Below, in pieces: positions 27,927-37,629 of a DNA stretch of 59,218 nt. The notes beneath the pieces are model-generated. The model was not told where the DNA came from, did not search any database, and saw nothing but the letters and a program-made list of their open reading frames with translations. Source of the stretch: an uncultured Clostridia bacterium. Its GTDB lineage: Bacteria; Bacillota; Clostridia; Oscillospirales; CAG-272. The position numbers and the translations under genes were made by a program. The stretch is taken from the NCBI GenBank assembly GCA_946410595.1, contig CAMKAU010000004.1:1-59218 (forward strand), in the 5' to 3' direction. Each line of letters begins with the position of its first letter. Within the stretch, counting starts at the first letter, position 1.

Positions 27927-28934
27927 TCAGCGCATCCCCTTATCGTACGGGATGCCCTCCGCCTTCGGCGCGCGGGAGCGCTTGGAGGTAAAGGCAAGGA
28001 CGATCAGGACGACCGCGTAGGGGATGAGGTTGTAGAAATACATCGGCAGGTTGAGATCCTTGAGGAAGAAGACCTCCTCCCCTTTGATCGTGACGCTGAT
28101 CTGCGGATAGATCACGCCGAGGCACTTGAGGAAGCCGAAAAGCAGCGAGCCGAACGCGATGCCGAGCGGCTTCCAGTTGCCGAAGATCATGATGGCAAGC
28201 GCAAGGAAGCCCATCCCGGCAACAGCGCCGGAGGCCGTTCCGTTTGCCACGGTGGCAACGTAGATATATCCGCCGAGACCGGCAAGCGCGCCGGAAACGG
28301 TAGTGCCGAGATAGCGCATCTTCTGCACGTCGATCCCCACGCTGGCCGCCGCCTGCGGATGCTCGCCGCAGGAGCGGAGGCGAAGGCCGGTCTTGGTCTT
28401 GTAGATCAAGATCGAGAAGAGGATAAAGAGCCCGACGGCGATAAAGGTGGAGATATACGCTTTGTCGAAAAAGACCTTACCGACGGGACCGAGATCGTCG
28501 TTGAGCAGAACAAAGCCGAAATCCTTCAGCTTGCCGCTGCTGTCCGCCTCCATCGTCATCTCCAGCTGGTCTTTGCTGAAGAAGACCTTGATGAAGAAGA
28601 GGGCGATCGCCGGGGCCAGCATATTCAGCGCCGTGCCGCCGATGGTCTGATCCGCCTTCAGCTTGATCGCGGAGAAGGAGAGAAGGAGCGAGAAGAGCGC
28701 CCCGCCCACCGCCGCAATCGCCATAGCGAGCAGGAAGGTCAGCTGATTGTGATCCACGAAATAGGGCGCTTTGCGGAGGAGGTAAGCGGTCAGCGCGCCG
28801 ATGAAGGAGCCGAAGATCATAATACCGTCAAGCGCGATATTGATGATGCCGCTGCGCTCCGCGTACATGCCCGCCAGCGCCACGATGAGCAGCGGGATGG
28901 AGAAGATCAGCGTTTTTTGAATGAGAAAGATCAC
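27927..28934 (-). CDS. ABC transporter permease, BMP/nucleoside type (NupQ-like)
   Basis: The 335-residue protein has eight to ten hydrophobic helices and the family motifs RSGIINIALDGIMIFGSF, DQTIGGTALNMLAPA, RLRSCGEHPQAAASVGIDVQKMRYLGT and GMGFLALAIMIFGNWKP. It is the second permease of a CUT2-like nucleoside importer and overlaps the first permease gene by 4 bases. It lies last in the operon before a strong terminator. Confidence 0.95.
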   Translation of the reverse strand: MIFLIQKTLIFSIPLLIVALAGMYAERSGIINIALDGIMIFGSFIGALTAYLLRKAPYFVDHNQLTFLLAMAIAAVGGALFSLLLSFSAIKLKADQTIGGTALNMLAPAIALFFIKVFFSKDQLEMTMEADSSGKLKDFGFVLLNDDLGPVGKVFFDKAYISTFIAVGLFILFSILIYKTKTGLRLRSCGEHPQAAASVGIDVQKMRYLGTTVSGALAGLGGYIYVATVANGTASGAVAGMGFLALAIMIFGNWKPLGIAFGSLLFGFLKCLGVIYPQISVTIKGEEVFFLKDLNLPMYFYNLIPYAVVLIVLAFTSKRSRAPKAEGIPYDKGMR

Positions 28935-30214
28935 AGCGCGTTACCTCCCTTCTCCGTTTTTTCCTCCGCCTCGGCGGAGGCGTCCGCCGCAGCGGGCGCG
29001 GGGGGCTCCTTCGGATCCGGGTCCGGGAGAGGAGCGGCCGGGGCGGCTTCCGCTTTTTTGATCCGTTCTTTGGACAAAAGGTCCTTAATCAGCTTGGAGA
29101 AGCCGGAGAAATAGATGATCACGGCGACGATCAGCGGAGAGACGTACTCGTTGAAGGAGGTCTGCGCCGCCAGATTGGAGCCGCCGACCGAGATATACTT
29201 CAGGAAGATCGCGGAGAAGATCACGCCGATCGGGTTATTGCTGGCAAGCAGGGCGGCGGGAATGCCGTTGAAGCCGTCGGCGGGCAGGGAGAGGTAGGTG
29301 TTCCAGATGAAATCCTGCGCGCCGTTGAGGCACCAGAGCGCCGCGCCGCAGGCGGCGAGCGCGCCGGACAGCGCCATCGCGAGAACGATATTGCGCTTTT
29401 CGTTCATGCCGGCGTATTTGGAGGCGTTTTTGTTGTATCCGCACGCCTTCAGCTCGTAGCCGAACGTCGTTTTGTTGATCACGATATAAAGCACAACGGC
29501 GATCCCCGCGGCAAGGAAGATGCTGATATCCATATAGGAATTGCCGAGCAGCTTGTCAAGCCCGAGGGTCGCGGTCGCCACGCCGTTGGAGGCCGTTTTG
29601 CGGATGAAGCTGACCTTGGTCTCCGCGTAGTTGATGAAGCGGTCTCCCGACGCCTGGAAGATCCAGGAAACGAGGTTGGCGGCGATCCAGTTGGTCATGA
29701 TGCAGACGATCACTTCATTAACGTTGAAACGCGCCTTGAAAAACCCGGGGATCGCCCCCCAGATCATGCCGAGCAGCGTGCCGGCCAGCAGCGCGAGGAT
29801 CCACACGATCCACGAGGGGATCACGTCCGTCGGGAGAGAGAGGGAGACGATCAGCGCGCCCGTCGCGCCCATCAGATACTGCCCCGGCGCGCCGATATTG
29901 AACAGGCCGGTCTTGAAAGCGAGCGCGACCGAAAGGCCGGTCATGATCAGGGGCGTTGCCTGGAAGAGCATATTCCCGAGCTGGAAGAGCACGTCCTTTG
30001 CGCTGCCGGCGGAAAGCGGCCCGCCGAGAACGATCAGGATCCCGGAGAAGGCCTCCGAAAAGGGGATATCCTCCGCAAAGACGGCGAGCAGGAGCAGCAC
30101 GATAAACCCGACGAGGATCCCGCCGAGAATGCTGACGAGAGAGGCGAAGACCGATCTTGCGCCGCTCTTTTTCAGAAGAGGAACGCGCTTATCGGTTTTT
30201 TGCGGTCCGTTCAT
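28931..30214 (-). CDS. ABC transporter permease, BMP/nucleoside type (NupP-like)
   Basis: The 427-residue protein has the family motifs PLIMTGLSVALAFKTGLFNIGAPGQ, FNVNEVIVCIMTNWIA, LKACGYNKNASKYAGMNEKRNI and GFNGIPAALLASNNPIG. About ten membrane helices are followed by a C-terminal Pro/Ala/Glu-rich cytoplasmic tail of about 45 residues. Both ends overlap their neighbours by four bases (ATGA), which shows tight coupling of ATPase, permease 1 and permease 2. Confidence 0.95.
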   Translation of the reverse strand: MNGPQKTDKRVPLLKKSGARSVFASLVSILGGILVGFIVLLLLAVFAEDIPFSEAFSGILIVLGGPLSAGSAKDVLFQLGNMLFQATPLIMTGLSVALAFKTGLFNIGAPGQYLMGATGALIVSLSLPTDVIPSWIVWILALLAGTLLGMIWGAIPGFFKARFNVNEVIVCIMTNWIAANLVSWIFQASGDRFINYAETKVSFIRKTASNGVATATLGLDKLLGNSYMDISIFLAAGIAVVLYIVINKTTFGYELKACGYNKNASKYAGMNEKRNIVLAMALSGALAACGAALWCLNGAQDFIWNTYLSLPADGFNGIPAALLASNNPIGVIFSAIFLKYISVGGSNLAAQTSFNEYVSPLIVAVIIYFSGFSKLIKDLLSKERIKKAEAAPAAPLPDPDPKEPPAPAAADASAEAEEKTEKGGNAL

Positions 30215-31800
30215 TTCTCGCTCGCCTCCTTATCCTGTCTTTTTGCGCCCGCCATGAAGAGCCCGAGCTCCTGCATGGTGACCGTCTTCGGGTCGAACTC
30301 GCCGGTGATCTCGCCCTCGTACATGACGAGGATCCGGTCGGAGAGGTTCATCACTTCGTCAAGCTCGAGAGAGATCAGCAGCACCGCCGCTCCCGCGTCC
30401 CGGGAGGCGACGATCCGCCGGTGGATCGACTCGATCGCGCCGACGTCCAGTCCTCTTGTCGGCTGGACGGCGATGAGCAGCTTGTGCTCACGGTCCATCT
30501 CCCGCGCGATGATCGCCTTTTGCTGGTTGCCGCCGGACATACTGCGCGCGACCGTTACAGGTCCCTGGCCGCTGCGCACGTCGTATTCCCCGATCAGCCG
30601 ATCCGCGTAGGCGCGGACGGCGTCGAACCGGATGAAGCCGTTTTTCTGGAAGTCCGCTTCAAAATACCGCTGCAGCACGAGGTTTTCCTCAAGCGAATAG
30701 TCGAGGACCAGTCCGTGCTTGTGACGGTCCTCCGGGATATGGCTCATCCCGTGCGTGTTCTTGTAGCGGATGCTCTTTTTGGTCACGTCCTCTCCGCAGA
30801 GGAGGACGGAGGAGCCCGGCTCCGCTTTTTCCAGTCCGGAGAGAGCGCCGACAAACTCGCTCTGGCCGTTGCCGTCGATGCCCGCGATGCAGACGATCTC
30901 CCCCGCCCGCACGGACAGGGAAACGTTACTGACGGCGTTTTTCTTGTGGATCCTGCTCCGGACCGTCAGATTGTTGATCTCAAGGACCGTCTCCTTCGGT
31001 TCGGCGGGCGCTTTGTCGACCGTGAACTTGACGTTCCGGCCGACCATCATATTGGAAAGCTCCTCTTTGGTCGTGTCCGCGATATTCACGGTGCCGATAT
31101 ACTTCCCTTTGCGCAGAACGGTGCAGCGGTCCGCGACCTCCATGATCTCGTTGAGCTTGTGGGAAATAAAGAGGATGGACTTCCCTTCCGCCGCGAGCCC
31201 GCGGATGATGCCGATCAGCTCGGTGATCTCCTGCGGCGTCAGGACCGCCGTCGGCTCGTCAAAAATCAAAATCTCGTTTTCGCGGTAGAGCATCTTGAGG
31301 ATCTCCGTCCGCTGCTGCATCCCGACGGTGATGTCCTCCACGAGCGCGTCCGGGTCCACGTTCAGACCGTAGCTCTCGGAGAGCGCCAGGATCCGTTCGC
31401 GCGCGGCCTTTTTATTGAGAAAGCCGAGCGTGTTCGGCTCCACGCCGAGGATGATATTGTCGAGAACGGTAAATACGTCGACCAGCTTGAAGTGCTGGTG
31501 GACCATCCCGATCCCGAGGGCGTTTGCGTCGTTGGGGTCGCGGATCGTAACCTTTTCGCCGTCTTTGTAGATCTCGCCCTCTTCCGGCTGGTAAAGGCCG
31601 AAGAGAACCGACATCAGCGTCGATTTGCCCGCGCCGTTTTCCCCGAGCAGAGCGTGGATCTCGCCCCGCCGGAGCTGGAGGGTGATATGGTCGTTTGCCA
31701 CGATACCGGGAAAGACCTTCGTGATATTGCGCATCTCGATCACGTACGGGGAGTCCGCCTTCCCGGTCCGGAGATCCTGCTCCTGTCTTGTTTCGTTCAT
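30211..31800 (-). CDS. ABC transporter ATP-binding protein, BMP/nucleoside type (NupO-like)
   Basis: The 529-residue protein has two fused ATPase domains, as in sugar and nucleoside importers. The first has GENGAGKSTLMSVL, VGMQQRTEILKMLYRE and IFDEPTAVLTPQE; the second has GIDGNGQSEF in place of Walker A (as usual for the degenerate second site) and SGGNQQKAIIAREM. I chose the ATG at 31800, which starts the conserved domain after a short tail; the longer frame to 32088 runs back through a hairpin and into the binding-protein gene. Confidence 0.95.
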   Translation of the reverse strand: MNETRQEQDLRTGKADSPYVIEMRNITKVFPGIVANDHITLQLRRGEIHALLGENGAGKSTLMSVLFGLYQPEEGEIYKDGEKVTIRDPNDANALGIGMVHQHFKLVDVFTVLDNIILGVEPNTLGFLNKKAARERILALSESYGLNVDPDALVEDITVGMQQRTEILKMLYRENEILIFDEPTAVLTPQEITELIGIIRGLAAEGKSILFISHKLNEIMEVADRCTVLRKGKYIGTVNIADTTKEELSNMMVGRNVKFTVDKAPAEPKETVLEINNLTVRSRIHKKNAVSNVSLSVRAGEIVCIAGIDGNGQSEFVGALSGLEKAEPGSSVLLCGEDVTKKSIRYKNTHGMSHIPEDRHKHGLVLDYSLEENLVLQRYFEADFQKNGFIRFDAVRAYADRLIGEYDVRSGQGPVTVARSMSGGNQQKAIIAREMDREHKLLIAVQPTRGLDVGAIESIHRRIVASRDAGAAVLLISLELDEVMNLSDRILVMYEGEITGEFDPKTVTMQELGLFMAGAKRQDKEASEK

Positions 31801-31832
31801 ACAAGTTCTCTCTTTTCTTTTGAGATACAAGC

Positions 31833-31863
31833 AAAAAAGGGATGGCGTTGCCGCCATCCCTTT
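31833..31863 (-). terminator. Attenuating hairpin between the binding protein and the ABC genes
   Basis: A 12-bp stem (31836-31847 with 31852-31863) with a 4-base loop lies 8 bases after the lipoprotein stop. On the minus strand it is followed by TTTTTTGC. Partial termination would leave more binding protein than transporter. Confidence 0.85.
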
Positions 31864-31871
31864 CGTCCGGA

Positions 31872-32942
31872 TTATTTTTCGATGGTGACGGTGACCTTGG
31901 TAAGCCCGGCGGTCACATCGGCAGGAACATCGGCGACCGGGACGATCTCGCCGCTCTTGATCTTGTTGAAGACCTCTTTGTACTGATCCACGGTGAAGTT
32001 CTTGAGGCGCCAGGTATCGATCGGCAGACCGGTAGAATCTTCGGCAGCGCCGAGGTTCTGCGCCTTGTTGGCAAGCTCCGCATCCCATTTGCCTTCGTAG
32101 AACTGGCCGAGGACCTTCTCAACGGAAACGGCAAGGCCCTTGACGGCGGAGGTGATGACCTTCTCGGATTCGCCGGACTGGTCAACGTCAACGCCGATGA
32201 TCTTCGCGTTCGGATATTCGCCCGCCGCGCTCTTCACGGACTGGAACATCGAGCCGCCGCAGGAGAAGACGACCTCGGTCCCGTCGGCATACCAGCCGGC
32301 GATCTGGGTCTGGAGCTCGTTGGAGGGGTTGAAGTTTTCGCCGTACTTGAAGCTGTACTTCATCGCGACATCCACGTTCTTGATCTTCGCGGCAGCCTCG
32401 GCGCCCTGAATGAAGCCGTAGCCGAAACGGTTGACAGCGGGGTTGGCTCCGCCGCCGCCGCCCGTGAAGCCGAGCTTGGTGTAACCTTCCATAACGGCGG
32501 CGTAGCCGGCGAGATAGCCGGACTCCTGCTCCTTGTAGACGATGGCGGTGACGTTGTCAAGGCCGAGAGCCCAGCCGTCGACGAAAACGAACTTAACGTC
32601 CGGGTTCGCGGTGGCGACTTCCGTCATAGCGGTGGCCTGCAGGAAGCCGGGGGCGACGATGATCTTCGCGCCGTTGTTGATCGCGAGCTTCATCGCGGCA
32701 ACGCGGTCGTTATCGGTCGCGTCGCTGCCGTTGGCGGGCTGATAATACTTGTAGTTGATCTTGTGGGCTTCCGCGTAGGCCTTCGCGCCTTCGTAGGTAC
32801 CCTGGTTGAAGCCCTTGTCCATCAGCTGACCGATATCGGTCACGACGGCGATCTCATAGGTTTTCTTCTCGCAGGAGGCGAAAAGAGAGACCGCGCCGAG
32901 CAGCATGGAAAGACAAAGAACGATGCCGAGAAACTTTTTCAT
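31872..32942 (-). CDS. BMP family nucleoside-binding lipoprotein (NupN/PnrA-like)
   Basis: The 356-residue protein has a lipobox FASC (Cys24) and the BMP fold: IAVVTDIGQLMDKGFNQGTYEGAKAYAE, NGAKIIVAPGFLQATAM, VKFVFVDGWA, ESGYLAGYAAV, FGYGFIQGAEAAAK, VFSCGGSMFQSV and IIGVDVDQSGE. Members of this family (PnrA, NupN) bind purine nucleosides outside the membrane and deliver them to the importer encoded downstream. It is the first gene of the operon, has the promoter, and is followed by a hairpin. Confidence 0.95.
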   Translation of the reverse strand: MKKFLGIVLCLSMLLGAVSLFASCEKKTYEIAVVTDIGQLMDKGFNQGTYEGAKAYAEAHKINYKYYQPANGSDATDNDRVAAMKLAINNGAKIIVAPGFLQATAMTEVATANPDVKFVFVDGWALGLDNVTAIVYKEQESGYLAGYAAVMEGYTKLGFTGGGGGANPAVNRFGYGFIQGAEAAAKIKNVDVAMKYSFKYGENFNPSNELQTQIAGWYADGTEVVFSCGGSMFQSVKSAAGEYPNAKIIGVDVDQSGESEKVITSAVKGLAVSVEKVLGQFYEGKWDAELANKAQNLGAAEDSTGLPIDTWRLKNFTVDQYKEVFNKIKSGEIVPVADVPADVTAGLTKVTVTIEK

Positions 32943-33019: not shown

Positions 33020-33113
33020 GAGATTTGTGAATATTTTGTGATGATTTTTTGTTTTTGCAGGAAGGGCTGCCGTTTTCTGCGTTTTTTCCGGTTTTTTTGC
33101 GTTCCGAGCGGCA

Positions 33114-33148
33114 AAAAAAGACGGAAGGACCGGGTCCTTCCGCCTTTT
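33114..33148. terminator. Terminator after the c-di-AMP receptor gene
   Basis: CGGAAGGA (33122-33129) pairs with TCCTTCCG (33135-33142), flanked by an A run and a T run. It ends the exporter operon and shields the nucleoside operon promoter. Confidence 0.85.
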
Positions 33149-33475
33149 TTACAGTTTTTCGCAGCTTTCCACGTTCAGAACGAACACCGTGGCGCCGCCC
33201 ACCTTGACCTTCGGCGGGAGACTGTCCGCCTTCATCCCTTTGCCGAACGCGGTAACCGGCGTCGCCATCTGGCGGCGGGTCACGCAGTGCTCTTTGAGGA
33301 TCTCCAGAACGTGAGGGACGCCTTCGTCCTCCGTGCCGATGAGAAGGGTGGTGTTTCCGACCATGAGAAAGCCGCCCGTGGTAGAAAGCCGCGTGACGAA
33401 ATATCCCTCCGCCGTGAGCGAGGACGCGGCGACCGCGCTGTCGTCGTTGTTTACGATCGCGAGTACGAGTTTCAT
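33149..33475 (-). CDS. Cyclic-di-AMP receptor, DarA/PstA type
   Basis: The 108-residue PII-like protein matches the DarA family: KLVLAIVNNDD, LTAEGYFVTRLSTTGGFLMVGNTTLLIGTEDE, and a beta-rich end (GGATVFVLNVES). These trimeric cytoplasmic proteins bind c-di-AMP through the conserved TGGFL and GNTTLLIG segments; downstream partners are mostly unknown. It is normally found near tmk and holB, but here it is the last gene of an exporter operon, 17 bases after the DUF1854 gene. Confidence 0.93.
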   Translation of the reverse strand: MKLVLAIVNNDDSAVAASSLTAEGYFVTRLSTTGGFLMVGNTTLLIGTEDEGVPHVLEILKEHCVTRRQMATPVTAFGKGMKADSLPPKVKVGGATVFVLNVESCEKL

Positions 33476-33492
33476 TCTCTTTCTCCTTCTTT

Positions 33493-33987
33493 TTACAGAT
33501 AAAAGTCTATCAGATTCCGGCTCCGTTTGTCAAGCCGGCGCAGATCGGGGATCTCGTAGCGGTTATCGGTGCTGTCGCGGATCAGTACGCGCGTACCGCA
33601 GACCAGCTTGATCGAATGGACGATATTGCGTACGTCGAAGGCGTGATCCCCCTTGTCCGTTACCACGGAGAAGGAGACCTTCCCGAACTTTTCCGTGATG
33701 CTTTTGATCGCCGTGATCTTCGGGATGCGGTAGTATTCCTCCAGGCAGGAAAGGATGATCGCTTTTCCCTCCTCCGAGAGATCGTTGAGATCCCGGATGA
33801 TCCCCACCTCGTCCTGATCCTGATCCAGCAGGGTGATATAGCGGTCGGTCCCGCTGAGGGGAAAGAGGCGCCGGGGCTCGACCCCCTCGACCGTCTCGCC
33901 GGAGAAAAGCTCCATATCCGCCACCGTCAGGTCGCGGCGGGTAAAGCGGGCGTTGTTGCCGTCGATATAGAGGCGTTCCCGTTTCAT
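33493..33987 (-). CDS. DUF1854 domain protein
   Basis: The 164-residue protein matches DUF1854: RREL-type start (IDGNNARFTRRDLTVADMEL), PRRLFPLSGTDRYITLLDQDQDEVGIIRD, YYRIPKITAI and FDVRNIVHSIKLV. The family is of unknown function and occurs next to a particular ABC exporter, including cyanophycin-linked clusters of betaproteobacteria. Here it overlaps the exporter gene by 4 bases, so it is very likely a partner subunit or regulator. No membrane segment or signal peptide is present. No cyanophycin synthetase or cyanophycinase is in the window. Confidence 0.88.
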   Translation of the reverse strand: MKRERLYIDGNNARFTRRDLTVADMELFSGETVEGVEPRRLFPLSGTDRYITLLDQDQDEVGIIRDLNDLSEEGKAIILSCLEEYYRIPKITAIKSITEKFGKVSFSVVTDKGDHAFDVRNIVHSIKLVCGTRVLIRDSTDNRYEIPDLRRLDKRSRNLIDFYL

Positions 33988-36266
33988 TCGAACCTCTCCT
34001 CCTCTTTCATCTTCTCCGCGTCGGCGCGCATCGTCTGGATCTGGACCAGGCGGTAGTACTTCCCTTTCTTTTCCATCAGCTCCTCCGGCGTGCCCATCTC
34101 GAGGATCTCGCCCTTGTCGACAACGATGATCTTGGTGGCGCGGCGCAGGGTGGAGAGGCGGTGGGCGACCATAATGGTCGTCCGCCCGCTGATCAGACGC
34201 TCGATCGCCCCCTGGATCAGCGCTTCCGTCTCCGAGTCGACCGAGGCGGTCGCCTCGTCAAAGAAGAGGATGCTCGGGTTTTTGAGGACCGCGCGGGCAA
34301 TGGAAAGACGCTGCTTTTCCCCGCCGGAAACGCCGATGCCGCGCTCGCCGAGGAGGGTATCGTACCCGTCCGGCATCCGGGCGATGAACTCGTGCGCGTT
34401 CGCCACGTCCGCCGCGTGGATCACTTCCTCGGGGGTGGGATCGTCGCTGCCGAAGGCGATATTGTTGAAGATCGTATCCCGGAACATCATCGGCTCCTGC
34501 TGGACGTAACCGATCTTCGAGCGGTAGAAGTTCATATCGATCTTGCGGATATCGATATCGTCCACCAGGATCTCGCCGTCATAGCCGTCGTAGTAGCGCA
34601 TCAGGAGGTTGATCATCGTCGACTTGCCGGAGCCGGTCGTCCCGACGATGCCGACGATCTCCCCCGGTTCGATCACGAAGTTGATATCCGAGAGGGTGTT
34701 CTTCGAGCGGTCAAAGGAGAAGTTGACGTGGCGGAACTCGATCTTGCCTTTGAAGTTCTTCGGGTGGTTACCGGCGGAGAAGTCGTTTTCCGGCTCGGCG
34801 TCGATAATGTCCATGATCCGCTCCGCCGCCGCCAGCGCGTGCTGATAGGAATCGTTGAGGTTGGCGAAGAAGTTGACGGGGCCGTAGAACATCGAGGTAT
34901 AGGAAATGAAGGAAACGAGCAGACCGACCGAGATGGCTTCCGACGCGCCGTTGATGACGTAGGTACCGCCGAGCCCCCAGATGAGCAGCGAGCCGCAGGT
35001 GATGACGAAGGAGATCAGATGCGGGAAGCTGATGGTGATCCGGGCGCTGCGGATATCGGTCTTGAGCCATTCGTCGTTATATTCGTTGAAGTTATCGATC
35101 GCCTTCTTTTCGCTTGTGAACGCCTTGATCACGCGGATCCCGGGCAGGGTGTCCGTGAGGATCGAGGTAACCGCCGACCAGCGCCGCCAGATCTTGACGT
35201 AGAAGGGGCGGATCTTCTGCCCGAAAACGCGGGCGAACACCACGACGAACGGAACGGGGATGAGAGAAAGGAGGGTGAGCTCCCAGTTCATCGAGAGCAT
35301 GATGACGACGATCCCGATCAGCTGGAAGAACTGGACGACGACCTCCTGCGTGATCCGCAGCATAAAGGCCTGCAGGGTCGAAGTGTCGCCGCTGATGCGG
35401 TTGATGACCGAGCCGGTGGAGGTGCTGTCGTAGAAGCGCATCGGCAGGTACTGGGCCTTTGCGTAGATATCCGCGCGGAACTCCTTGACGATGCTGTCCC
35501 CGCATTTGCGCAGGTAGTAGGAACGGACGATCCCGAGCAGATGCTGCAGAAGATGCGCGCCGAAGAGGAGGGCGACGACGATATGCAGCAGGCGAAGATC
35601 GTTGTTTGGGAAGACCTCGTCCACGAGGGTCTTGGTCATATAGGGCGGCAAGAGGGACATCGCCGTCGTCACGACCGAGAGCAGAACGCAGAAAAGGAGC
35701 AGCCATTTGTGCGGGAGAATGTAGCGCGCGATCTTTTTGATAAAGCGGCGCTTGGAGGAGCAGTAGATACACGCGGCGCCCGGCCGGATGAGAGAACGCC
35801 CGCACTTCGGGCACACGGAGCGCTGCTTTTCAAAGGTCTCCTCCAGAGCGGGCAGGAGAGCTTCCAGCGCTTCGCCTTCCGCCGCGCGGGCGATAAACAA
35901 AGCCGCCGCTTCAAAAACGGAAGCGGTCTTGAGAGAAAAACGGATAAAATTGTCGGTTTTTCCGTCGCGTTTCCGGATCGTCAAAAGCGCGTTGCCGTAA
36001 CAGCGCTTGACGTCCGCCGATTCAATTTCGTCATAGGGAAGACGGATCGCTCCGTCTCCGTCCGCGGCGGAAGAATACACGGCCTTGCCGGTCGCGAAAA
36101 AGAGGGAGTTTCCGTAGCGGCCATCCATGGAAAGGTCCGCCGGGATGACAAAAAGGACTTCCTCGTCTCCCGAAAGCGTTTTGATCCGCTCCGTCTGACT
36201 TGCGGTCAGATCGACGCTGGAGCGAAAAAGCTGCTGCGCTTCCGGGTCCTCGTGCGTATGATGCAT
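33984..36266 (-). CDS. ABC exporter with N-terminal PH-like domain and zinc ribbon
   Basis: The 760-residue protein has an N-terminal domain of about 135 residues (SLFF-type beta repeats, YGNSLFFATGKAVYSS, IRLPYDEIESADVKR) like a bacterial PH domain, then a zinc ribbon (CPKCGRSL...CIYC), then a six-helix exporter domain (about 185-475) and an ATPase with GTTGSGKST, YVQQEP, SGGEKQRLSIARA and FFDEATASVD. It is a half-exporter that should dimerise. The ATG at 36266 has GGAGG only 3 bases away; the GTG at 36326 has no site. A strong promoter lies upstream. The substrate is unknown; partner genes encode DUF1854 and a c-di-AMP receptor. Confidence 0.93.
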   Translation of the reverse strand: MHHTHEDPEAQQLFRSSVDLTASQTERIKTLSGDEEVLFVIPADLSMDGRYGNSLFFATGKAVYSSAADGDGAIRLPYDEIESADVKRCYGNALLTIRKRDGKTDNFIRFSLKTASVFEAAALFIARAAEGEALEALLPALEETFEKQRSVCPKCGRSLIRPGAACIYCSSKRRFIKKIARYILPHKWLLLFCVLLSVVTTAMSLLPPYMTKTLVDEVFPNNDLRLLHIVVALLFGAHLLQHLLGIVRSYYLRKCGDSIVKEFRADIYAKAQYLPMRFYDSTSTGSVINRISGDTSTLQAFMLRITQEVVVQFFQLIGIVVIMLSMNWELTLLSLIPVPFVVVFARVFGQKIRPFYVKIWRRWSAVTSILTDTLPGIRVIKAFTSEKKAIDNFNEYNDEWLKTDIRSARITISFPHLISFVITCGSLLIWGLGGTYVINGASEAISVGLLVSFISYTSMFYGPVNFFANLNDSYQHALAAAERIMDIIDAEPENDFSAGNHPKNFKGKIEFRHVNFSFDRSKNTLSDINFVIEPGEIVGIVGTTGSGKSTMINLLMRYYDGYDGEILVDDIDIRKIDMNFYRSKIGYVQQEPMMFRDTIFNNIAFGSDDPTPEEVIHAADVANAHEFIARMPDGYDTLLGERGIGVSGGEKQRLSIARAVLKNPSILFFDEATASVDSETEALIQGAIERLISGRTTIMVAHRLSTLRRATKIIVVDKGEILEMGTPEELMEKKGKYYRLVQIQTMRADAEKMKEEERFE

Positions 36267-36337: not shown

Positions 36338-36366
36338 ATTAAAACAAACCGGCCGGGGAATGTCAA
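36338..36366 (-). promoter_or_regulatory. Promoter of the exporter/DUF1854/c-di-AMP receptor operon
   Basis: On the minus strand TTGACA (36361-36366) and TTTAAT (36338-36343) are 17 bases apart, with a leader of about 65 bases. Confidence 0.8.
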
Positions 36367-36492: not shown

Positions 36493-37629
36493 TCAGAGCG
36501 GCTCAAGCAGGATCCGGCCGCCCTCGCACCGGACGCCCGCTTTACCGAAGCAGATCCGCTCCTTCTGCCCGGTCGTCACGCTGAAAAGAAGCTCCCCTGC
36601 GTGGAACCGGAAGGTCGGATACTGGAAGGTCGCCGGAGAACGGAAGGTGAAAAGGGTGCGCCAGGATCTCCCGTCGGCGGAAAAGGCGAGGTGGTAAACG
36701 GTGCGCGAGCCCTCGTTCCAGCCCATAAAGCAGTACCCGCCGGCGGTAAAGAGGACCGGCTTGGAGTTGACGCCGCCGCAGAGGAACGGCTCGGAAACGG
36801 GATCGCTCCAGAGCCGGCCGTCCCGGCTGTAGGAAAAGCGGTAGTTTTTGTCCCCGATCTCGTTGCGCAGGATCGCCATCCAGCGGCCGTCCGGCAGGCG
36901 GGCGATCCCGCTCTCGGTCGTTTTTTCGGTCGGGGTAACGCCGCCGATATGCCCGACGATCTCCACGCAGTCGCAGGACCGGTTGAAGCGGGCGAGAGAG
37001 TTCTGCCCGGCGACAAAGTTGTTTAGCGCGAGATACCGCGTCCCCGCCTCTTCAAAGAGATCGAGAAGGTATACGCCGAACCAGCGGTCCTCGCAGGCAT
37101 GGCCGGCGGCGCGGAAGAGCGCCCGGTAGTTTGCCGCATCGAGCGGGCCCTCTCCCTCCGGCGTGCGGAGGCGCAGAAGCGAGAGCCGGTCGGAAAAACG
37201 GCCGGTGGGAAGATCGTAATCCAGATAGTAATGGTACGCGCTTTCTTCTTCCGGGATCACGTTGGTAAAGAAGAACCGGAGCGTATCCCTCTCAAGCCGG
37301 AGCACGCGCGGCAGAAAGGCGTTGCCCTTGCAGAGCGTCCTGCCGGCAAAGGTCTGTCCCCTGCGGGCAAACGGACCGCAGCATTCCAGAGAAAAGGAAG
37401 CGAGATCGACGACGGAGAGCGCGGCGTACTCGTTTTCGTTCAAGGCGGACTCGCCCGCTTTGAAGTTGTCCGCCTCGTAGACGATATACGCTTTGCCTTC
37501 TGCTGTGATGAACTGCGCGTCGTGCGCGCCCTTCACCTCCGGGGCGGTCACGGGGATCATCCGCTCCATCGCCCTCTCCCCGGCCGCCTCCGGCGACCAG
37601 GAGGCGGGCAGGTCTTCCAAAAAGATCAT
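36493..37629 (-). CDS. BNR/Asp-box repeat protein (sialidase or GH43-like propeller), cytoplasmic
   Basis: The 378-residue protein is beta-rich and has two Asp-box-like repeats, SYSRDGRLWSDP and AFSADGRSWRTL, in its C-terminal half. An acidic HDAQF motif, then FLPRVLRL, FNRSCDCVEIVGH and ESGIARLPDGRWMAILRNE, resemble five- or six-bladed propeller glycosidases. No signal peptide is present, so it works in the cytoplasm. GGAGG lies 5 bases before the ATG. It starts 16 bases after the sufB stop, so it is likely co-transcribed with sufCB. The substrate and the reason for this pairing are unknown. Confidence 0.8.
   Translation of the reverse strand: MIFLEDLPASWSPEAAGERAMERMIPVTAPEVKGAHDAQFITAEGKAYIVYEADNFKAGESALNENEYAALSVVDLASFSLECCGPFARRGQTFAGRTLCKGNAFLPRVLRLERDTLRFFFTNVIPEEESAYHYYLDYDLPTGRFSDRLSLLRLRTPEGEGPLDAANYRALFRAAGHACEDRWFGVYLLDLFEEAGTRYLALNNFVAGQNSLARFNRSCDCVEIVGHIGGVTPTEKTTESGIARLPDGRWMAILRNEIGDKNYRFSYSRDGRLWSDPVSEPFLCGGVNSKPVLFTAGGYCFMGWNEGSRTVYHLAFSADGRSWRTLFTFRSPATFQYPTFRFHAGELLFSVTTGQKERICFGKAGVRCEGGRILLEPL

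Follow-up and report, generated by a model that had tools for sequence, protein, structure and literature searches.

Two small PII-fold nucleotide sensors, GlnK and SbtB, are encoded at shared gene loci with the membrane transporters AmtB and SbtA, respectively, the ligands of SbtB being cAMP and AMP. DarA (PstA, YaaQ; Pfam family PF06153) is a PII-like protein of the Bacillota that has been known as a receptor of cyclic di-AMP (c-di-AMP) for over a decade. PII-like proteins are described as exerting their effects through binding to transporters and to further targets (PMC4475381, PMC7857571), with the binding of AmtB by PII proteins as the transporter precedent (PMC4475381), and the targets or the function of DarA/PstA are given as unknown in publications from 2015, 2021 and 2025 (PMC4475381, PMC7857571, PMC12802241). 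Here we describe a stretch of 59,218 nucleotides (the window; contig CAMKAU010000004.1 of assembly GCA_946410595.1) from an uncultured Clostridia bacterium of the family CAG-272, in which a DarA gene closes an operon that also encodes an ATP-binding cassette (ABC) half-exporter and a DUF1854 protein. We hold it practically certain that the operon link among these three genes is real. From it we put forward, tentatively and slightly short of even confidence, that a dedicated DarA lineage would act as a detachable sensor of c-di-AMP that gates a DUF1854-type ABC exporter, standing in the third-gene place of a second half-exporter, and that DarA domains would serve exporters as a transferable c-di-AMP switch, carried as a separate subunit by the ABC kind and as a fused domain by a MATE exporter. 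The layout given in a preliminary description of this DNA was borne out in full on the minus strand: the exporter and DUF1854 genes share 4 bases (ATGA), 17 bases lie between the DUF1854 stop and darA, and Pfam confirms each gene:

33984..36266, minus strand: ABC half-exporter gene, 760 amino acids (PF00664 and PF00005)
33493..33987, minus strand: DUF1854 gene, 164 amino acids (PF08909, 4.3e-38)
33149..33475, minus strand: darA, a DarA/PstA-type predicted c-di-AMP receptor of the exporter-linked lineage, 108 amino acids (PF06153, 3.6e-32)

The linkage was surveyed at three scales, with counts that are not independent, the genomes being related and mostly fragmented assemblies. Independent searches of 118 genomes of the family found DUF1854 in 93 and DarA in 38 (41 copies), and in 15 of the 38 DarA-bearing genomes, spread over ten genus codes, DarA immediately follows DUF1854 in the same orientation. 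Across 391 genomes of the class, 63 of which have DUF1854, DarA places were scored with an alignment of linked DarAs (A1) and fell into two groups, 18 places at 152.7 to 182.4 bits and the others at 130.3 bits or below; the line of 150 bits that we use was drawn after this gap was seen, and the weakest places are absent from the table. All 18 places of at least 150 bits, the window's own included, lie directly behind a DUF1854 match and span seven family codes (the match starts at a contig end in G121 and G222 and is partial in G261), and none of the listed places at or below 130.3 bits adjoins one. The arrangement thus recurs far outside the window, which answers the question of whether DarA stands beside DUF1854 only here.

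The same alignment was then applied to one genome from each of 84,980 species, and the best 80 DarA loci were kept; by their record titles these come from metagenome-assembled genomes, mostly labelled Clostridia and many from animal rumen, cecum, colon or rectum. In 75 of the 80, DUF1854 lies directly upstream on the same strand (that of L079 being cut by a contig end), and in 73 the exporter is upstream too; since the loci were selected by similarity to linked DarAs, the figure of 75 describes that lineage and not all DarAs. The remaining five comprise three cut by contig ends (L080, L092 and L141), a housekeeping paralogue (L147) and L140, where a DUF6056 gene (L140:4477-5937) separates DUF1854 from DarA but the operon is otherwise intact. 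With starts trimmed, DUF1854 and DarA lie a median of 20 bases apart (76 loci, L140 included). The linkage is far beyond chance and is not a local co-location. Beyond the three genes, any true neighbour is shared by at most 11 of the 80 loci, and the osmotic or cell-wall role suggested in the preliminary description finds no support.

The linked DarAs also form a lineage of their own. A tree of 126 sequences, built by a quick method on 108 columns, compared 83 linked DarAs (three cut by contig ends, and L140, among them) with 43 others, of which 25 come from the family or close to it and 18 from the class. All 83 stand on one side of a branch with a Shimodaira-Hasegawa-like approximate likelihood ratio (SH-aLRT) support of 98, together with a single comparison sequence, L072; with L072 left uncounted, one label change on the tree suffices to separate linked from other DarAs. 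The L072 gene adjoins one with SIS and glutamine amidotransferase domains, and because it belongs to the linked clade but sits at another locus, it has moved. The other DarAs keep different company. Of the 26 non-linked copies in the family, 24 were checked for holB (G079 starts at a contig end and G018 was not fetched), which is directly downstream in 20 and not in L056, L057, L065 and L072, and holB lies within the fetched stretch for 17 of the 18 comparison DarAs of the class. It was not found in the stretches around the 15 linked loci of the family, a search that did not extend to tmk. Twelve of these 15 genomes yielded no DarA other than the linked copy, among them that of the window, with one match each for DarA, DUF1854 and diadenylate cyclase, while G060, G083 and G098 have a further DarA, as do 11 of the 18 linked class genomes. 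The isolate SIG530 carries both types, a linked one (L089) and L147, which lies between an Orn/Lys/Arg decarboxylase gene and holB.

By its sequence the window's DarA is a clear member of the family, scoring 111.2 bits against the PF06153 profile (cut-off 27) and matching the structure of Listeria Lmo2692 (4rww) at 1.8e-25. Its 116.7 bits against the NCBIfam DarA equivalog NF058593 are below the cut-off of 140, but so are those of all five housekeeping-type DarAs scanned, so that this cut-off does not discriminate. The residues that contact c-di-AMP are described for Listeria PstA (PMC4475381), which also reports a B-loop that is moved by c-di-AMP and weakly conserved there. Their counterparts in the window are:

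33353..33376, minus strand: T-loop region of DarA, residues 34-41, with GGFL and Asn41, counterpart of PstA c-di-AMP contacts and conserved in linked DarAs
33233..33250, minus strand: B-loop motif of DarA, residues 76-81, AFGKGM in the window, the motif of the exporter-linked lineage

The PstA contact residues T28, GGFL (34-37), N41, G47 and GGA are all present in the window's DarA and near-invariant in the 83 linked ones (G34, G35, L37, N41 and G47 each in 83, F36 in 81). The phosphate-contacting His108 of Listeria PstA corresponds to Lys107, a lysine in 79 of the 83 and also in 20 of the 43 comparison DarAs. Exporter-linked DarA is thus predicted to bind c-di-AMP. In the B-loop, G78 is found in all 83 linked DarAs, and the motif [SATC][FLYM]GxG[LMFI] occurs in 72 of the 83 versus none of the 43, making it a natural candidate for a docking surface.

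The company kept by DUF1854 itself was checked at those 30 DUF1854 loci of the family that scored best. All 30 have an exporter gene upstream, and all eight database proteins recovered in a search for long DUF1854 proteins also carry ABC domains (one such exporter-DUF1854 fusion, L173, has 955 amino acids), so the earlier statement that DUF1854 travels with this kind of exporter holds. Such fusions, like those of DarA to MATE exporters described below, strengthen the functional link between receptor and exporter, and DUF1854 is likely, on this gene-level evidence, an accessory subunit of the exporter. Downstream of DUF1854 a second half-exporter follows in 21 of the 30 loci, none of which has DarA there, and only a single exporter is present in the other nine, seven of which have DarA; DarA therefore occupies the second half-exporter's place. 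The arrangement with a half-exporter gene on either side of DUF1854, which would seem to encode the exporter in heterodimeric form, is seen in 21 of L003-L032 and also in L176-L178, L180 and L182. L171 was not judged, its contig ending 39 bases past DUF1854. Two variants may be recorded here: a 484-residue protein without a Pfam match stands behind DUF1854 in the position of DarA (L175:3071-4525), and in another locus the exporter gene is separated from that of DUF1854 by one with a PF03641 match (possible lysine decarboxylase; L138:4426-5151). The predicted model of DUF1854 is beta-rich (predicted local distance difference test, pLDDT, 91.6), structure searches with it returned no convincing solved relative, and no paper in the literature searched names the family.

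The exporter has the hallmarks of a type IV ABC exporter, with transmembrane and ATPase domains fused (PF00664 at 1.2e-47, PF00005 at 9.7e-31) and the catalytic motifs present. Since an alignment of 51 exporters shows no variation at the key residues of the Walker A, signature, Walker B and H-loop motifs, and since related loci have a pair of half-exporters flanking DUF1854 instead, it is likely active as a homodimer. In its predicted model (pLDDT 76.6) an N-terminal domain and a ribbon of four cysteines are joined to a core of the type IV exporter kind, and a structure search with this model placed TM287/288 (6qv0) closest, with Sav1866 nearby. Ahead of the core lie:

35877..36230, minus strand: N-terminal domain of the exporter, residues 13-130, of PH-like topology in the predicted model, with an invariant V-x-R-x-YGNA core
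35760..35813, minus strand: four-cysteine, zinc-ribbon-like segment (Cys152, 155, 166 and 169), all four cysteines invariant in the 51 aligned exporters

In the model the N-terminal domain runs through seven strands and then a helix, with pLDDT blocks of 84-91 over residues 21-130. A sequence search for a solved relative found none, and one homologue gave a weak bPH_3 match (E 0.18). Of the N-terminus described earlier as PH-like with a zinc ribbon, the topology and the four invariant cysteines are therefore retained, the PH-like label resting on the modelled topology and not on homology; the cysteines would be expected to bind zinc.

The signals in and around the operon are:

36338..36366, minus strand: promoter-like element upstream of the exporter gene, TTGACA (36366-36361), 17-base spacer, TTTAAT (36343-36338), read by eye
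33504..33533, minus strand: promoter-like TTGACA-18-TAGACT from a consensus scan, within the 3' end of DUF1854 just ahead of darA
33113..33148, minus strand: strong intrinsic terminator directly 3' of darA, a hairpin of -22 kcal/mol (z -4.04) followed by a T-run

The single terminator claimed for the operon is thus in place, and a purine-rich ribosome-binding stretch precedes each of the three starts. The single TTGACA promoter is present as described, but its singleness is in doubt, since the weaker site inside the DUF1854 end may give darA its own promoter; the consensus scan of the region listed three sites versus 1.4 expected in shuffles, and the element before the exporter is missing from that list because the scan requires A at position 2 of the second hexamer. 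Adjoining the operon is a nucleoside-type importer operon (window 27927-32942, minus strand), with a BMP/PnrA-type substrate-binding protein, an ATPase and two permease-like genes, and upstream lies the gene of a 378-residue protein without a Pfam or NCBIfam match (window 36493-37629, minus strand).

To see DarA domains in other company we turned to a search for longer DarA-domain proteins, which gave 13 matches. Three are near-identical MATE exporter-DarA fusions of 558-563 amino acids with DarA at the C-terminus (P0138-P0140); they are one lineage and could come from one lost stop codon, yet they tie the domain, independently, to an exporter of a second and unrelated kind. Five proteins have two DarA stretches per chain (P0130, P0133-P0136), P0131 and P0132 are annotated with P-II and DarA domains (an annotation not rechecked), and P0141 has one C-terminal DarA stretch. 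The other two, P0129 and P0137, are different fusions of thymidylate kinase (Tmk) with DarA. Together with L174:908-1924 (minus strand) the Tmk-DarA fusions span two divergent lineages, and they make Tmk a candidate partner of the housekeeping DarA; PstA has been tied to thymineless death in a 2025 paper (PMC12802241).

That DarA follows DUF1854 across genera and families as a separate lineage is the reason for proposing a functional link between c-di-AMP receptor and exporter. For the c-di-AMP-controlled export of the preliminary description this means that the link is supported and that the gene set implies export. As to how control might work, we think it somewhat more probable than otherwise that DarA acts directly on the exporter complex, and with similar confidence we suggest from the sequence evidence that it would dock on the exporter-DUF1854 complex from the cytoplasm and gate it by the level of c-di-AMP. 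In this scheme the exporter would work as a homodimer, DUF1854 would sit close to the nucleotide-binding domain, as its position in the fusions suggests, and the DarA B-loop with its lineage-specific motif would be the contact surface. At low c-di-AMP, apo-DarA would bind the complex and hold it; c-di-AMP would remodel the B-loop and release the complex. This direction of control is the weakest step and at best a doubtful one, being modelled on other PII-like proteins and on DarB: apo-DarA is described as seemingly harmful in c-di-AMP-free mutants (PMC7857571), and apo-DarB as the Rel-binding form (PMC7900238).

Several observations weigh against the proposal. The contrast in the B-loop motif comes from a motif defined after inspecting the linked set, Listeria PstA has its S-L-G core too, and over the whole B-loop the linked DarAs are barely more conserved than the comparison DarAs (mean entropy 1.79 versus 1.96). 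L072 shows that DarA can leave the operon, and it lacks the motif. Single-exporter operons without DarA exist in G103 (L021, L172), G429 (L179), G166 (L181), G065 (L175) and at L010, so that DarA is an addition and not a core part. No DUF1854-DarA fusion was seen among the 13 DarA fusion matches, from a search that reached the linked lineage poorly, or among the 120 listed of 677 DUF1854 relatives. A DarA trimer does not match the symmetry of a dimeric exporter. A diadenylate cyclase turned up in all but one of the 15 linked family genomes (14, that of the window being one of them), the linked G011 having no match; the enzyme is near-universal in the family (109 of 118 genomes), and its presence therefore permits the model but hardly tests it. 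Partial distance correlations over 71 loci (DarA-exporter 0.49, DarA-DUF1854 0.26) fit co-inheritance as well as contact.

Some of these points are shared with an unlikely, though by no means negligible, explanation: that DarA and the exporter are only made together, for instance under one stress, and DarA acts on other targets. The possible separate promoter before darA and the departure of L072 would suit such co-expression, and where the linked copy is the only DarA, as in those 12 family genomes, it may have taken over housekeeping work. Mere co-expression fits less well with a separate lineage, bearing its own B-loop motif, that is fixed to the operon in seven family codes, or with the further DarA that accompanies it in G060, G083, G098, 11 of the 18 linked class genomes and the isolate SIG530.

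Two other readings place the link elsewhere. DarA could act on DUF1854 as an enzyme or polymer-handling factor, the exporter only sharing the pathway, as suggested by the best NCBIfam models for both proteins, which are named as cyanophycin metabolism-associated; the matches, of 570.9 bits for the ABC protein (cut-off 880) and 79.4 bits for DUF1854 (cut-off 150), are both under their cut-offs, the window's genome has no cyanophycin synthetase above cut-off (best 102.5 of 850 bits), and DUF1854 is fused to exporters, which together leave this reading very improbable. We give marginally less credit still to the idea that the exporter exports c-di-AMP or a related nucleotide, which DarA would sense or carry in the cytoplasm as part of a feedback loop. 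The exporter is indeed co-encoded with a receptor dedicated to the nucleotide, and a BMP/PnrA-type importer operon adjoins it in the window, but DUF1854-exporters without DarA, including the double half-exporter form of 21 of the 30 loci, make c-di-AMP an unlikely basic substrate, and the importer next door is likely incidental given the lack of recurrent neighbours among the best 80 loci.

Should DarA indeed gate the exporter, an ABC exporter would join the processes under control of c-di-AMP, of which the transport of potassium and osmolytes is the main known one, and DUF1854 would gain its first role, as an exporter subunit; in any case the exporter-fixed lineage gives DarA/PstA one concrete, purifiable candidate target. 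Compared with described DarA/PstA proteins, the linked DarA has the domain, the main c-di-AMP contact residues and a PII-like protein of similar length in common, and differs in standing behind exporter and DUF1854 and not with tmk (PMC4475381) and holB, in its separate clade, in a B-loop motif absent from every comparison sequence and in coexisting with a further DarA in some genomes. DarB acting on Rel is also a stand-alone c-di-AMP receptor that binds its partner in the apo form (PMC7900238), but has a CBS domain and a different target. On the exporter side, TM287/288, Sav1866, BmrA and MsbA share the transmembrane and ATPase domains at 28-36% identity in the structure search, and the window's exporter differs from them by its extra N-terminal PH-like domain, its four-cysteine ribbon and its DUF1854 partner. 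The cyanophycin-associated ABC and DUF1854 proteins (NF052233, NF052234) are the same protein pair, with near full-length alignment; membership in that system was set aside on the sub-threshold scores and the lack of a synthetase above cut-off in this genome. A parallel in function would be GlnK-AmtB and SbtB-SbtA, where a small PII-fold nucleotide sensor is likewise encoded with a membrane transporter, and like these PII-type regulators the linked DarA is co-encoded with a transporter across many genomes. The present system departs from them in pairing the sensor with an exporter instead of an importer or channel, in the extra subunit DUF1854, and in a predicted ligand that is c-di-AMP here versus ATP and 2-oxoglutarate or cAMP and AMP there.

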